Origin: Anaerolineales bacterium
GTDB taxonomy: Bacteria; Chloroflexota; Anaerolineae; Anaerolineales; Villigracilaceae
Assembly: GCA_025056175.1 (NCBI GenBank)
Contig: JANWWK010000021.1
Coordinates: forward strand, 1 to 47,165
Reading direction: 5' to 3'
Length of the DNA stretch: 47,165 nt
Part shown: one piece after another, positions 6,852-16,213 of the stretch
Position numbering within the stretch: position 1 is the stretch's first letter
Layout of the letters: each line of letters begins with the position of its first letter
The notes under the pieces: generated by a model
Told to the model about the DNA's origin: nothing
What the model saw: the letters and a program-made list of their open reading frames with translations, nothing else
The model's database searches: none
Position numbers and translations under genes: made by a program

Positions 6852-8228
6852 ATGGAAAGCCGCATTCTACAGTTGATTGCTGCCTTGCGCGCCAGCGGTG
6901 TACGCATCAGCCTGGCAGAGAGCGCCGAGGCCTTCTCCGCAGTAGATTTGATGGGGATTCAAGACCGCGAACAATTCCGCCTCTCCCTGCGCGCCACACT
7001 CATCAAGGATGTGCGTGACATTCCCGTCTTCGAGAAACTCTTCCCGCTTTTCTTTGGCGCCGCGCCTCCGCCGCTGATGGGCGGTAACATCTCTGAGCAG
7101 TTGACGCCCGAAGAAGCCGGCCTGCTGGCCGAAGCCTTGCGCCAGTTTGCCCAGGATTTGCGTGAGCGCATGGACCGCCTGCTGAACGGGCAACCCCTGA
7201 CCCGTGAGGAACTGGAGCAACTCGCCCGCATGGTTGGCCTGAACAACACTCAGGATTTGCGTTACCAGAACTGGATGGCGCAGCGCATGATGCGCGCGCT
7301 GGCCTTCCCCGAAGTGCGCGAAGCCCTGAAAGAGTTGATGGAACAACTGGCCCAACTGGGGATGAGCCGCGAGCGGGTCGAGCAGGTGCGCGAACTGATT
7401 CGCCAAAACCTCGCCGGCCTGGAAGAACAGATGCAGCAGTTTGCTGGCGAGCGCATTGCCGAAAATTTGAGTCAACAGCCTCCCGGAGAAAGCACCGATT
7501 CCCTGCTCAATCGTCCGTTTCGCGCCTTATCCGATGCCGACAAAAAAGCCCTCCAGCGCGAAGTCCGCCGCCTGGCGGCTATCCTTCGCACGCGCATTGC
7601 CCTGCGCCAGAAGCGCGCCAAAACCGGGCAGCTCGACCCAAAAGCCACCATCCGCGCCAATCTCAAGCACCATGGCGTGCCAATGGAAATCCGCCACAAA
7701 GACCGCACCCGCAAACCGCGCATCGTCGTCTTGTGCGACATCAGCACGTCCATGCGTTTCTGTTCGGAACTCATGCTCACTTTCCTCTACGCGCTGCAGG
7801 GACAGGTACACAAAACCTACGCCTTCGCCTTCATTGACCACCTGGAATCCATCTCCGGCGATTTCGAGGCCACCAGTGCCGAAGAAGCCATTGCGTCCGT
7901 CTTGTGGCGTATGCCTGCCGGTTCGTACAACACCGATTTAGGTTGGTCGCTTCAGAATTTTGTGGATTCCTATCTCGATACGCTCACCGGCCAAACCACG
8001 CTGCTCATCGTTGGCGATGGCCGCAACAATTACAACGACCCTCGTTTAGACCTGTTCTCCTTGCTGGCCCGCCGCGCCGCCCGAGTCATCTGGTTCAACC
8101 CCGAACCACCCGCCTTGTGGAATGGTGATAGCGATATGCCTCGCTATGCTCCTCTGTGCAACTCTGTGCTAAAGGTGGGTAACCTGCGCGAGCTGGCCGA
8201 AGCCGTTGACCATTTGATGACAAACTGA
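6852..8228 (+). CDS. CoxE-like von Willebrand factor A domain protein
   Basis: 458-residue partner of the preceding MoxR ATPase. The N-terminal 270 residues are helical and rich in Glu/Gln/Arg (for example LAQLGMSRERVEQVRELIRQNLAGLEEQMQQF), probably coiled-coil. The C-terminal VWA domain has the MIDAS start VLCDISTSM (DxSxS, Asp296), a later threonine region (GSYNTDLGWSLQNF) and LLIVGDGRNNY with the distal Asp. No signal peptide or membrane segment is seen, so it should be cytoplasmic, as expected for CoxE. The gene starts 3 nt after the MoxR stop. The metal-dependent VWA face is expected to bind either the ATPase ring or the client. Confidence 0.87.
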   Translation: MESRILQLIAALRASGVRISLAESAEAFSAVDLMGIQDREQFRLSLRATLIKDVRDIPVFEKLFPLFFGAAPPPLMGGNISEQLTPEEAGLLAEALRQFAQDLRERMDRLLNGQPLTREELEQLARMVGLNNTQDLRYQNWMAQRMMRALAFPEVREALKELMEQLAQLGMSRERVEQVRELIRQNLAGLEEQMQQFAGERIAENLSQQPPGESTDSLLNRPFRALSDADKKALQREVRRLAAILRTRIALRQKRAKTGQLDPKATIRANLKHHGVPMEIRHKDRTRKPRIVVLCDISTSMRFCSELMLTFLYALQGQVHKTYAFAFIDHLESISGDFEATSAEEAIASVLWRMPAGSYNTDLGWSLQNFVDSYLDTLTGQTTLLIVGDGRNNYNDPRLDLFSLLARRAARVIWFNPEPPALWNGDSDMPRYAPLCNSVLKVGNLRELAEAVDHLMTN

Positions 8229-8257
8229 AAAAAGCATTAGGAAACCAAAGCCACCTA

Positions 8258-8286
8258 TTGACATCCGATTACTTCTATGTCATACT
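8258..8286 (+). promoter_or_regulatory. Promoter of the rtcB leader
   Basis: Consensus TTGACA (8258-8263), exact 17-nt spacer, CATACT (8281-8286). Predicted start near 8293 gives a leader of about 190 nt before the rtcB ATG, which holds the 19-codon ORF and the competing helices. Confidence 0.7.
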
Positions 8287-8338
8287 CCCATCATCATTAA
8301 GGGGCAAGTCAATTCATTCATCGCTATCCTTTAGAAAG

Positions 8339-8476
8339 GAGGAGGTGATGTCTCGCATGGACAGTAACAGTATCCAACGTGGCGCGGCGGCATCCCTCCT
8401 CGGTTAATCCGTCAGGAAGCCGCTGCGCCAAACCGAATGCCGTCCTTCAGGGCGGCGTTCTCGTTTGGGGAGGAGG
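8339..8476 (+). promoter_or_regulatory. Attenuator-like rtcB leader with competing helices
   Basis: Four pairings can be read directly. Helix A: 8339-8350 (ribosome binding site and ATG of the small ORF) with 8391-8401, 11 bp. Helix B: 8381-8391 with 8419-8429, 11 bp with one G-U. Helix C: 8435-8445 with 8450-8460, 11 bp with a TTCA loop, extendable by CAAAC/GTTTG (8429-8433 with 8463-8467). Helix D: the CCTCCTC at 8395-8401 can instead pair with the GAGGAGG ribosome binding site of rtcB at 8470-8476. A and B interlock and A and D share one strand, so the leader can hold either start site closed depending on ribosome position. This is the architecture of a translation-responsive switch. Its function is inferred. 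Confidence 0.55.
8348..8407 (+). CDS. Putative 19-residue leader peptide upstream of rtcB
   Basis: Starts ATG directly after the very strong ribosome binding site AAAGGAGGAGGTG (8335-8347) and encodes MSRMDSNSIQRGAAASLLG before TAA. An internal ATG at 8357 would give a shorter version. The 3' half of the ORF (8381-8401) forms one side of helices A, B and D, so translation through it must disrupt them. The peptide is not recognised and may have no function beyond its translation. It is too short for statistical gene calling, so the case rests on the ribosome binding site and the overlap with the helices. Confidence 0.5.
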   Translation: MSRMDSNSIQRGAAASLLG

Positions 8477-8482
8477 TCTCTC

Positions 8483-9658
8483 ATGAAAAAAATCGAAGGG
8501 ATTCCCGTATGGGGGGAGCCGGTCGATGAATCGGCGTTTGCCCAAATCAAAAACTGTGCCAGAACCGCCAATGCCGCCGCCCTCATGGCCGACCACCACA
8601 AAGGATATGCCGTACCAATTGGCGGTGTCTTGGCCTACTACCAACACATCAGCCCCTCGGGGGTGGGTTTCGACATTGCCTGTGGCAACAAAGCCGTTCT
8701 GATTGATATTCCCGCAGCTGAAATTCGCCGGAATATCGCCAAAATCATGGACGACATTTGGCGAAACCTGTCATTCGGAATCGGCATGAAGAATAACATC
8801 CGTGTTGACCATCCGTTGTTTGAAGACCCGGCCTGGAAACTGCCTGCTCTCTCGCCACTCAAGAAGATGGCGCAGGAGCAACTCGGCACGATTGGCGGCG
8901 GCAACCATTACGTAGATTTGTTGGAAGACGAGCAGGGACGCATCTGGATTGGAGTCCACTTTGGCTCGCGCGGCCTCGGCCACAAAACCGCCACCTACTT
9001 CCTGAAGGCCGGCGGCGCCAAAGATGGGATGGATGTGGACCCGCTCATCATCCCTGTCCGCTCAGCACTGGGGCAGGATTACCTGACAGCGATGGAACTG
9101 GCGGGACGCTATGCCTATGCCGGACGTGACTGGGTATGCGATTTTGTAGCAAAGATGCTCGGCGCACGCATCCTCGATTCAGTTCATAACCATCACAATT
9201 TTGCCTGGCGCGAAACGCATTACGGCGAGGCGATGTGGGTTGTCCGCAAAGGCGCTACTCCGGCGTTTCCTGGTCAGCGCGGGTTCATCGGCGGTTCGAT
9301 GGGGGATATTGCCGTCATCGTGGAAGGCGTAGATTCGCCTGAAGCACGCCAGGCGCTCTATTCCACCGTACACGGAGCGGGGCGGGTCATGAGCCGCAAC
9401 GCAGCGCGAGGCAAACGCGACCGGCGGACGGGAAAGGTCATCAGCCCTGGCCTTGTTTCGCGCGAGATGATGCTGGCATGGGTACGCGAGCAGGGTGTGG
9501 AACTGCGCGGTGCAGGCACCGATGAATCGCCACACTGCTACAAACGCCTGCCTGAAGTGTTGAAACACCACGCCGCCACCATCCGCATCTTACACACACT
9601 GCGGCCCATTGGCGTGGCGATGGCTGGTGAAGACGAATTCGACCCCTATAAAGATTAG
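8483..9658 (+). CDS. rtcB: RtcB-type RNA 3'-phosphate ligase
   Basis: GTP- and Mn-dependent ligase that joins 2',3'-cyclic-phosphate or 3'-phosphate RNA ends to 5'-OH ends, used in RNA repair. The 391-residue protein has the family landmarks in order: ADHHKGYAVPIGGV, GVGFDIACGN (metal-binding Asp and Cys), GGGNHYVDL, VHFGSRGLGHK, HNHHNFAW, RKGATPAF with GFIGGSMGD, HGAGRVMSR (the guanylated histidine motif) and GAGTDESPHCYK. It is shorter than the roughly 480-residue archaeal and E. coli enzymes, matching the compact bacterial subgroup. Start at 8483 follows GGGGAGGAGG (8467-8476), the ribosome binding site that can be sequestered by the leader. No archease (RtcA-type partner) or RtcR gene is nearby. 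Confidence 0.93.
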   Translation: MKKIEGIPVWGEPVDESAFAQIKNCARTANAAALMADHHKGYAVPIGGVLAYYQHISPSGVGFDIACGNKAVLIDIPAAEIRRNIAKIMDDIWRNLSFGIGMKNNIRVDHPLFEDPAWKLPALSPLKKMAQEQLGTIGGGNHYVDLLEDEQGRIWIGVHFGSRGLGHKTATYFLKAGGAKDGMDVDPLIIPVRSALGQDYLTAMELAGRYAYAGRDWVCDFVAKMLGARILDSVHNHHNFAWRETHYGEAMWVVRKGATPAFPGQRGFIGGSMGDIAVIVEGVDSPEARQALYSTVHGAGRVMSRNAARGKRDRRTGKVISPGLVSREMMLAWVREQGVELRGAGTDESPHCYKRLPEVLKHHAATIRILHTLRPIGVAMAGEDEFDPYKD

Positions 9659-9668
9659 CGGTCGCGCT

Positions 9669-9697
9669 TTGTGAAAACTCTAACAAGAAATTAATAC
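9669..9697 (+). promoter_or_regulatory. Promoter of the solitary cydA
   Basis: TTGTGA (9669-9674), 17-nt spacer, TAATAC (9692-9697). The decamer TTGTGAAAAC recurs at 9733-9742, giving two direct copies 64 nt apart, one over the -35 and one downstream of the start. TTGTGA is the half-site of redox regulator Rex, but no inverted partner TCACAA is present. Confidence 0.5.
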
Positions 9698-9766
9698 CAA
9701 GACGGTCTGAATTAGGTAAAATAAGGGCAGACTTGTGAAAACCACCACGAATTACAGGTATGCCCT

Positions 9767-11179
9767 ATGGATGTTGTTACCCTTTCCCGTCTTCAGTTTG
9801 GCGTCACCACCGCCTTCCACTTCCTCTTCGTCCCGCTCACGCTCGGTCTCATCTGGTTTGTGGCCTTCTTCCAAACCATGTATTACCGCACCGGCGAGGA
9901 GCGTTACCGCCGCATGACCAAATTCTGGGGTAAATTGTTTCTGGTCAACTTTGGCATGGGCGTTGTCACCGGAATCGTGCAGGAATTCCAGTTTGGCATG
10001 AACTGGAGCGAATACAGCCGTTTCGTCGGTGACGTGTTTGGTTCGCTGCTTGCCATTGAAGCCCTGGTGGCCTTCTTTCTTGAGTCAGTTTTCATCGGCA
10101 TCTGGATTTTTGGCGAAGGGCGCGTCTCGAAACAGGTGCATCTCTTCTCGATTTGGATGGCCGCTATCGGAAGCCTGTTCTCCTCAATCTGGATTCTGCT
10201 CGCCAATGGGTGGATGCAGCACCCGGTTGGATACGTCATCCACCCGGAAACTGGCAATGCTCAGCTGGTAGATTTTCTTGCGCTGGTGACCAACCCCAAA
10301 GGCTGGCTCCTGTTCTGGCACGCCATTTCGGCCGGGCTGGCCACGGCCGCATTCCTTCTTCTCGGTGTCAGCGCCTGGTATATCTTGCGGAAGCGTGAAC
10401 AGGATGTCTTCAAACCTTCGTTTACTGCTGGTGCCATTGTCGGGCTGATTGCCGCCTTTGCTCTCCTGATGACCGGCCACGAGCAGGGGCAGGAAATGCG
10501 CCTGTATCAGCCAATGAAGCTGGCGGCCATCGAAGCCATTTGGGAAACCGAACAACCCGCTTCTTTTTCCCTTCTCACCATCGGTGACCTGACCGGCAAA
10601 CAGGAAATCTGGTCTCTGCGTGTGCCATATCTGATGAGTTTCCTGGCCTGCAATAACTTCGCGTGCGAAGTGCGCGGCGTGAACGACCTGCAAGCCGAAT
10701 ACGAAGCTCTCTATGGTCCCGGAGACTACATTCCGCTGATGGTTGCCACGTACTGGTCGTTCCGAATTATGGTGGGCATCGGCTTTCTTCTGCTTGGCGT
10801 CGCAGCCTTTGCCTTGTGGGTCATTGTGCGCGGCTGGCCGGAGAAGCTCATCCCCTGGCTGAAGTGGATGCCTTACACCATCCCCCTGCCCTTTGCGGCG
10901 GGCGTGGCCGGATGGGTGACGACCGAAATGGGGCGTCAGCCCTGGGTGGTGCATGGATTAATGACGACCGCTCAGGCCATCTCCCCAAATCTGACGGTTC
11001 TGGACGTCACCATCAGCCTGACGGGCTTTACGCTCATCTACAGCATCTTAACCGTGATTATGGTGATGTTGATGTATCGCTTTGCACGCGAAGGCACCGA
11101 GGCTGCGCTTTCCAAATCGGTGGATGTGGCCGAAACGCGCCATCCACTCACGCCCAGCCTGGTTGGTGCGCAGGATTAA
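9767..11179 (+). CDS. cydA: Cytochrome bd-type quinol oxidase subunit I (solitary CydA paralogue)
   Basis: 470-residue haem-bearing subunit of a cytochrome bd oxidase, which reduces O2 with quinol at the membrane. Heme ligands are conserved: His18 (AFHFLF), His in LLFWHAISAG, and Met in SFRIMVG. The acidic pair region AIEALVAFFLES, the quinol-binding QPMKLAAIEA (equivalents of Lys252/Glu257 in E. coli) and GRQPW are present. The Q-loop is short and contains CNNFACEV, with two cysteines. Nine hydrophobic segments fit the family. ATG 9767 gives the normal MDVVTLSRLQFG start, with only a weak ribosome binding site. No cydB follows. A terminator closes it as a single-gene unit, so it may form a homodimer-like enzyme or borrow CydB from 13301. 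Confidence 0.92.
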   Translation: MDVVTLSRLQFGVTTAFHFLFVPLTLGLIWFVAFFQTMYYRTGEERYRRMTKFWGKLFLVNFGMGVVTGIVQEFQFGMNWSEYSRFVGDVFGSLLAIEALVAFFLESVFIGIWIFGEGRVSKQVHLFSIWMAAIGSLFSSIWILLANGWMQHPVGYVIHPETGNAQLVDFLALVTNPKGWLLFWHAISAGLATAAFLLLGVSAWYILRKREQDVFKPSFTAGAIVGLIAAFALLMTGHEQGQEMRLYQPMKLAAIEAIWETEQPASFSLLTIGDLTGKQEIWSLRVPYLMSFLACNNFACEVRGVNDLQAEYEALYGPGDYIPLMVATYWSFRIMVGIGFLLLGVAAFALWVIVRGWPEKLIPWLKWMPYTIPLPFAAGVAGWVTTEMGRQPWVVHGLMTTAQAISPNLTVLDVTISLTGFTLIYSILTVIMVMLMYRFAREGTEAALSKSVDVAETRHPLTPSLVGAQD

Positions 11180-11378: not shown

Positions 11379-11834
11379 ATGCTCCGAATTAACCGTCAGA
11401 CCGATTATGCCGTGCGTGTGGTGCTGGCTCTTGCGAGAGCCGGCCAGGGGGCGCGAGTTTCTTCTGCGGCCATTCAGCGTGAAATGCAAATCCCCAAAGC
11501 CTTTATGGCACGCATTGTGGCACAGCTGGCTCAGGCAGGGCTGGTGACTACCTTTCCAGGCCGCGAAGGTGGCCTGAGCCTGCCCCGCCCGCCAGAACAA
11601 ATTACCTTGCTCGAAGTGGTCGAGGCCTTCGAGGGAAAACTTTTACTCTCGGAGTGTCTGCATTTGAATGGCGAGGATGACTGTCCCTTCGTGGGTCACT
11701 GCCCGGTGCGCCCCAATTGGGGACGGGTGCAGGGCGCGATGGCGCGCGAGATGGCTGCTATCCATTTTGCTCAACTGGCTGCCGATTCACTTTCTATACC
11801 GGTGAAAGAACCTGCCCTGTTTGTGGCAGGTTAG
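11379..11834 (+). CDS. Rrf2-family Fe-S transcriptional regulator
   Basis: 151-residue Rrf2-type repressor with an N-terminal winged helix (INRQTDYAVRVVLALA ... IPKAFMARIVAQLAQAGLVTTFPGREGGLSL) and three cysteines, Cys93, Cys102 and Cys108, in the region where NsrR/IscR bind an Fe-S cluster. The first spacing (8 residues) is longer than the 4-5 usual in NsrR and IscR. It lies 32 nt upstream of cydA2-cydB, so it most likely senses O2, NO or Fe-S status and controls the oxidase genes and itself. ATG 11379 is preceded by a modest GGAAG. Which cluster and which signal it senses cannot be deduced. Confidence 0.87.
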   Translation: MLRINRQTDYAVRVVLALARAGQGARVSSAAIQREMQIPKAFMARIVAQLAQAGLVTTFPGREGGLSLPRPPEQITLLEVVEAFEGKLLLSECLHLNGEDDCPFVGHCPVRPNWGRVQGAMAREMAAIHFAQLAADSLSIPVKEPALFVAG

Positions 11835-16141: not shown

Positions 16142-16213
16142 GGCGAGGTAGCTCAGCGGCAGAGCAAGCGGCTCATAATCGCTCGGTCGTGGGTTCAAAT
16201 CCCACCCTCGCCA
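16142..16213 (+). tRNA. tRNA with CAT anticodon (Ile2-k2C or elongator Met)
   Basis: Full cloverleaf: acceptor GGCGAGG / CCTCGCC, D stem GCTC/GAGC, anticodon stem AGCGG/TCGCT with loop CTCATAA (anticodon CAT), T arm GTGGG-TTCAAAT-CCCAC, discriminator A. CCA is not encoded. G1-C72 is paired and the anticodon stem lacks the three G-C pairs of initiators, so it is not the initiator. The anticodon-arm-plus-variable-loop sequence resembles E. coli tRNA-Ile2, whose C34 is converted to lysidine by TilS, but elongator Met tRNAs also carry CTCATAA loops. Confidence 0.95.

Follow-up and report, generated by a model that had tools for sequence, protein, structure and literature searches.

What kind of RNA lies between a strong promoter and the rtcB gene in a member of the Anaerolineales, and does it serve rtcB at all? 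The question is raised by positions 8293-8482 of a 47,165-nt stretch of DNA from an Anaerolineales bacterium (Chloroflexota; Anaerolineae; Villigracilaceae; assembly GCA_025056175.1, contig JANWWK010000021.1). The whole stretch is called the window here, and coordinates of the element are window positions on the plus strand. An initial annotation had described this region as an rtcB leader with a small open reading frame (ORF) and interlocking helices, and had proposed a translation-coupled switch on rtcB. Comparison with homologues leads to a different answer. By sequence comparison, the element is a free-standing RNA gene of about 170 nt, with its own predicted promoter and terminator, nearly always present in a single copy and distributed across the class Anaerolineae, and it represents a new family of RNA genes, unmatched in Rfam 15. 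We regard it as probable (roughly 0.6) that this class-wide gene acts as a ribosome-gated regulatory RNA, in which a relay of alternative helices hides the Shine-Dalgarno (SD) sequence of a mini-ORF. The parts of the element in the window, with rtcB beyond it, are these:

8258-8286, plus strand: sigma-70-type promoter, TTGACA-17-CATACT (from the sequence, with the same kind in relatives)
8293-8318, plus strand: probable transcript 5' end and leader (start site placed from the promoter)
8319-8332, plus strand: 5' arm of helix P1, the upstream anti-SD strand, pairing with 8338-8350
8332-8349, plus strand: extended SD, UAGAAAGGAGGAGGUGAU, by complementarity to the 16S rRNA 3' tail
8339-8352, plus strand: 5' strand of helix ALT (GAGGAGG, U bulge, GAUGUC)
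8357-8407, plus strand: mini-ORF from the conserved second ATG, MDSNSIQRGAAASLLG, 16 codons plus stop
8381-8391, plus strand: 5' arm of the GC stem P2
8389-8401, plus strand: 3' strand of helix ALT, the internal anti-SD GGCAUCCCUCCUC, within the ORF end
8419-8429, plus strand: 3' arm of the GC stem P2
8435-8460, plus strand: hairpin P3 (8435-8445/8450-8460), predicted intrinsic terminator of the element, with its T run eroded here
8483-9658, plus strand: rtcB (Pfam PF01139), outside the element

Distribution and boundaries of the element

A DNA search with the leader matches 129 of the 152 genomes of the family. A covariance model built from 64 family copies (R1, from alignment A3) matches 200 of 301 genomes of the order at a cut-off of E 0.01, and a model built from 63 copies across the class (R2, from alignment A4; cut-off E 0.001) matches 226 of the 396 genomes of Anaerolineae, with a single match in each. 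In a draw of 400 genomes from the phylum, R2 matches 45 of the 55 genomes inside the class and, at E 0.001, none of the 345 outside it, the split being counted from a kinship-ordered listing of the draw. Three weak R1 matches from outside the class (L258-L260; E 0.004-0.008) were unconvincing on reading and were removed from the set.

The host genome carries one full copy, and a multi-copy element was rejected, as there is nearly always one copy per genome. R1 gave two matches in many genomes of the order, and 41 of these, picked by eye, were searched again with R2. A second, separate place was found in four (G154, G284 with loci L264 and L265, G315 and G380), which may hold paralogues or be mixed bins; in G376 both matches were weak and lay on different contigs, and the other second matches listed among the 41 genomes were the opposite strand of the same place. 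Indeed, the reverse complement of P2 with P3 weakly resembles the element (138-233 on the minus strand of L010, the sister-species locus, 25.7 bits; 8379-8474 on the minus strand of the window, 15.5 bits), because an anti-SD strand read in complement looks like an SD. In addition, a separate contig of the sister species (G003:C60:6533-6563) carries a 31-nt, 97% identical copy of 8310-8340, which spans leader, 5' anti-SD strand and the start of the SD.

The anatomy of the element was studied in 125 copies with 109 distinct ORFs, comprising 88 from the family and 37 from elsewhere in the order and class. The family loci numbered 90, two of which (L127 and L154) fell outside the search pattern, though the element is visible by eye in both. 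The other 37 copies were found via the structure model, and the P2 arms of all 125 copies, together with the trimming of the 88 family copies, were chosen by best pairing.

The consensus promoter named by the initial annotation is borne out: TTGACA (8258-8263) and CATACT (8281-8286) are separated by 17 nt, with TG preceding the latter, and agree with the consensus at 10 of 12 positions. It is the single promoter-like site in 7000-10500, a region whose shuffled versions average 1.4 such sites. A promoter of the same sigma-70 type stands ahead of 115 of 122 related elements, where shuffles give a rate of 0.10, and its spacer measures 17 nt in 107. A strong hairpin (score of at least 8) follows P2 in 116 of 124 elements vs 3.2% of shuffles, and its tail holds a median of 6 T within 12 nt; we therefore take the third hairpin to be a probable terminator. 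Thus, the hairpin at 8435-8460 is present as originally described, and would end the element instead of forming part of an rtcB leader. A looser definition (a hairpin of at least 9 bp) covers 119 of 124 elements, and it is a weak test because 27% of shuffles pass it as well; the shuffles used for promoter and terminator preserve base content only.

A divergent DUF4153 gene lies upstream of 55 of the 125 elements and a convergent 6-phosphofructokinase (PfkA) gene lies downstream of 48. The flanks of the 125 elements, which have a median of about 2 kb and fall below 500 nt downstream in five copies, showed no gene conserved downstream in the same direction. In the window, rtcB is followed by two genes for cytochrome bd oxidase subunit I (PF01654; 9767-11176 and 11717-13255), with a gene for an Rrf2-type regulator (11379-11831) between them.

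Comparison with known RNA families points to a new family. At the gathering score, Rfam 15 leaves the element unmatched, reports a tRNA at 16142 as the sole hit in the window, and assigns no family to seven element loci. Relaxed matches for the window element and for L249 (ryfA, CC2171, BSnc120, Pxr and others) are far under their cut-offs; for example, the ryfA match at 8433-8461 scores 12.3 bits against a cut-off of 80, covers the terminator hairpin only and is at chance level. The element is neither the transfer-messenger RNA nor the 6S RNA of this genome, which are located elsewhere (G000:C31 and G000:C3, respectively). A Chloroflexi-1 motif has been reported for Chloroflexus aggregans (PMC2864571), and this motif is an Rfam family that does not match the element. 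No description of such an RNA was found in the literature searched, an open-licence collection judged from titles and the starts of abstracts.

Alternative helices and the mini-ORF

The fold of 8293-8482 has a predicted energy of -77.5 kcal/mol, whereas 200 shuffles average -59.3 and none of them reaches so low a value (z -4.5). Within the extended SD, a stretch of 11 nt and an overlapping one of 9 nt are complementary to the putative 16S 3' tail, GGAUCACCUCCUUUCUAG, as read from the host genome. The initial annotation had paired the SD (8339-8350) with the ORF end (8391-8401), and this pairing forms the core of the longer helix ALT (8339-8352 with 8389-8401), in which 7 bp, a bulged U and 6 bp join GAGGAGG-U-GAUGUC to GGCAUC-CCUCCUC. 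The 11-bp helix described as interlocking with it (8381-8391/8419-8429) is P2. To these we add P1 (8319-8332 with 8338-8350), a further SD-hiding helix that had not been described, whose upstream anti-SD strand is highly conserved in its GC(C/T)ATCC portion.

By comparative sequence evidence, the GC stem P2 covaries strongly and ALT covaries clearly. In P2, 99.4% of alignment cells are paired and 9 of the 10 counted pairs change on both sides; for the structure as a whole, 0 of 500 shuffles reach as many double changes, and in A2, an alignment trimmed at a fixed offset and blind to structure, 5 of 10 P2 pairs carry double changes. In ALT, 93.4% of cells are paired, with 18 double-changed cells vs 4.4 in shuffles (0 of 500 as high). 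Compensatory change, which had been suggested as a check, is found in both helices, in homologues of the element that lie mostly away from rtcB. The first base of the NTG triplet upstream of the second ATG is paired as A-U in 85 copies, G-U in 24, G-C in 8, U-G in 5 and U-A in 1, and is unpaired in 2. In addition, the native ALT duplexes of 115 distinct copies average -23.8 kcal/mol vs -22.2 when partners are swapped, and none of 100 swaps is as low.

Some copies from other families (L249 and L256) have an ALT without the bulge, and their anti-SD strand, CAUCACCUC, is close to the 16S tail. One copy (L257) has a poor ALT score (-9.7) through a misplaced P2 and was retained in the counts. In three copies (L150, L153 and L157) the P2 loop is longer by about 24 bases, which bring in a second anti-SD motif resembling CACCTCC or CACCTTC.

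The small ORF with its very strong SD, at 8348-8407, is present as described and encodes, at full length, MSRMDSNSIQRGAAASLLG followed by a stop. Its start is likely to be 8357 rather than 8348, because the upstream NTG, whose first base is A, G or T in all 125 copies, is out of frame in 17 of them. The ORF is retained in 125 of 125 copies, ends before or inside the P2 3' arm and encodes 15-20 residues. Across the 123 copies with a paired anchor base, the distance from the second ATG to the ALT strand is 30, 33, 36 or 39 nt, divisible by three every time; the anchor base is unpaired in the remaining 2 of 125. On these comparisons, translation of the mini-ORF appears to have been kept.

The peptide itself is far less constant than the frame. 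Peptides diverge widely across the class, their grand average of hydropathy (GRAVY) has a mean of 0.21 (range -0.87 to 1.13), which is not hydrophobic, and most residues that are conserved (A-V/A-A-S-L-L) are encoded where the helices form. Of the 219 serine codons ahead of P2, 190 are AGT, and in the 109 distinct ORFs the codons past the P2 5' arm are mostly GCA (105), TCC (94) and CTC (177), a skew that suggests constraint at the level of RNA.

Predicted folding relay and rival readings

When each of the 125 copies was folded at six lengths, the SD was predicted to be paired upstream in 115 copies once the start region is out (SD plus 12 nt), downstream in 123 once the ALT strand emerges, and upstream again in 101 once P2 is complete; in the full transcript it is mostly paired to the upstream strand in 99 copies and downstream in 15. 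The difference E(ALT)-E(P2) averages +9.6 kcal/mol in favour of P2 (range -0.9 to 23.9). As this order is predicted in most copies, the SD is expected to be hidden at nearly all stages.

We postulate that these stages form a relay. In the growing RNA, the upstream strand would first conceal the SD in P1. As the end of the ORF emerges, the internal anti-SD, a mimic of the 16S 3' tail, would capture the SD and start region in ALT; once the 3' arm of P2 emerges, P2 would disrupt ALT and return the SD to P1, leaving the CU-rich anti-SD loop, the strand of which is highly conserved, partly exposed. A 30S subunit would then have to out-compete internal look-alikes of its own anti-SD for initiation, and a ribosome on the ORF would obstruct ALT and reach the foot of P2, such that the act of translation, more than the peptide, would decide which form of the RNA persists. 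Reading of the ORF may thus set the surviving RNA form or the freedom of the anti-SD loop, a role that we infer given that the peptide varies and that no conserved gene in the same direction was found downstream. Pairing of the loop to targets, RNA decay, or the peptide are candidate outputs.

More speculatively, and with the odds against it, the element could act by itself as a gauge of ribosomes competent for initiation. One extended SD would be contested between the real 16S tail and its internal copies, the winner within a short folding window would set the persisting form and the action of the loop on other mRNAs, and the mini-ORF would be kept for being read and not for its peptide.

Several observations weigh against a class-wide, ribosome-gated RNA with these helices. 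No R2 match was obtained in 170 of the 396 genomes of the class, through loss or low sensitivity, and the promoter, the terminator and translation are all deduced from sequence. The A3 and A4 alignments lean towards P2, as do the pair counts made on them, because arms were chosen by best pairing and copies were recruited with a structure model. Counted by pairs instead of cells, ALT has double changes in three, which is within the range of shuffles (171 of 500), a count lowered because alignment A4 shifts bulge-less copies by one column; moreover, the conservation of ALT and P2 is partly mutual, since they share bases. P1 shows one-sided changes only, so its case is made by prediction and conservation. 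No selection on the peptide was detected, because pN/pS, the ratio of nonsynonymous to synonymous change, is 0.49 in the true frame and likewise 0.49 in one shifted frame. Finally, the predicted relay is not uniform: with P2 formed, 10 of 125 copies keep the SD in a downstream pairing and 24 do not have it mainly paired upstream, and the anti-SD loop is unpaired at a probability above 0.5 in just 74 of 125 final folds.

Among the rival explanations, a functional tiny peptide would make the element an mRNA that is silenced during transcription, as type I toxin mRNAs are, with folds that merely block untimely translation. The frame kept in all 123 copies and the ORF in all 125 are what such a gene would show, and the two successive SD-hiding helices, which draw on a leader strand and on an ORF strand, recall AapA3 (PMC6733600). 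In addition, 27 of 122 elements have a promoter-like site on the minus strand around the SD, always in the same position (NNGACA-like to TAGGAT-like, spaced by 16-18 nt). Its hexamers both lie inside sequence held by P1 and ALT, so we did not accept the site as evidence for an antitoxin; it may give an antisense RNA over the leader or be a by-product of the P1/ALT constraints. Against a tiny-peptide mRNA stand the divergent and non-hydrophobic peptides, the conserved residues under helices, the codon skew and the equal pN/pS in a shifted frame, and we consider this reading unlikely. We would give slightly less credence to a small RNA that acts in trans, using its CU-rich loop to block SDs on other mRNAs, and in which the ORF is secondary. 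The conserved loop strand, more unpaired than paired in the 74 final folds mentioned above, the stem and terminator at the 3' end, and the anti-SD motifs described in NfeR1 and AbcR1/2 (PMC8844928) all speak for such an RNA; however, pairing of ALT to the element's own SD already explains the loop strand, and the ORF is present in all 125 copies.

The reading from which this work set out, a translation-coupled leader controlling rtcB, has some local appeal. In the window rtcB begins 22 nt past the third hairpin, whose T run is eroded, no further promoter-like site was found, the loop strand (8395-8401) is able to pair with GAGGAGG at 8470-8476 ahead of rtcB, and the sister species has the same gene order. 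Beyond the window this case falls away. Relatives of RtcB at 60% identity or more occur in 10 of 81 genomes searched, the host included, a patchy subfamily; these ten and 80 further loci from the GTDB collection made a set of 90, with some loci present twice. The covariance search of rtcB upstream regions that had been suggested finds the element at 2 of these 90 loci, in the window and in L010, and rtcB lies within the fetched flanks of 2 of the 125 elements, those of the window and the sister species. The latter (G003), of the same genus and with an RtcB 92% identical, is the sole other species with the leader among the upstream regions listed, and there the gap from hairpin to rtcB is 87 nt (65 more than in the window), with a different SD to which pairing of the loop strand is not seen. 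The proposed cover over the rtcB SD is thus possible in the window and is not seen in the sister species. Together with neighbours that differ across the class and the convergent downstream gene in 48 of 125 elements, these counts lead us to reject an rtcB leader as the conserved role and to consider a switch on rtcB very improbable; rtcB may adjoin the element by chance or through read-through, without being part of it. As for chance, GC-rich stems are common and promoter-like sites arise by themselves (a mean of 1.4 per shuffle), so a GC-rich stretch could carry structure that is merely apparent; class-wide homologues, covariation and frame conservation refute this, and we give it next to no weight. 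The preferred reading remains a ribosome-gated regulatory RNA.

Known systems and significance

Hiding of an SD by successive helices is not without parallel. In AapA3 of Helicobacter pylori, a CU-rich anti-SD strand of the leader and another of the ORF take turns at concealing the SD during transcription (PMC6733600). Like this type I toxin mRNA, the element is predicted to form successive, mutually exclusive SD-hiding helices in which a later, more stable fold takes over. Unlike AapA3, its final fold would be a GC stem over the ORF end with a return to the leader helix, and not a long-distance lock between 5' and 3' ends; its peptide of 15-20 residues is neither hydrophobic nor conserved; and it is nearly always single-copy and class-wide, with an antitoxin RNA that is only a candidate. 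By the tests made, then, the element is not a type I toxin mRNA, and it resembles AapA3 in predicted SD hiding without belonging to that group. The timP/RyfA RNA is likewise a small-protein mRNA with mutually exclusive folds around the SD, but, unlike the element, it requires a pseudoknot for translation and encodes a membrane toxin (PMC11228461).

Parallels also exist among regulatory RNAs. NfeR1 and AbcR1/2 have anti-SD motifs able to act on other mRNAs, and the element shares with them a CU-rich anti-SD motif, which in AbcR1/2 is located in a hairpin loop (PMC8844928). CcsR, linked to the cuckoo RNA type, shares a transcript with the small protein CcaF1, and RNA and small protein are similarly combined in the element (PMC10253847). 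Unlike all of these, the element has its anti-SD inside the ORF, where it is predicted to pair with the element's own SD. Translation of the short leader ORF toiL, upstream of topAI, remodels the RNA around an SD (PMC12121999), and the element resembles it in having a short ORF interlocked with alternative folds around an SD; whereas toiL controls a downstream gene, the element has no conserved co-directional gene downstream and would hide its own SD. For rtcB itself, control of rtcBA transcription by the protein RtcR in response to tRNA fragments has been described (PMC7790460), a protein-based control to which no link of the element turned up, and none was searched for.

For the biology of these bacteria, the immediate consequence is that the switching of rtcB by translation, a tempting reading, is unsupported and is now corrected. 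The predicted relay suggests that a style of SD hiding familiar from toxin mRNAs occurs in a chromosomal gene that is conserved and whose product does not resemble a toxin. And if the element does gauge initiation-competent ribosomes, a kind of RNA not found described in the literature searched, it would be a class-wide housekeeping regulator of the Anaerolineae.
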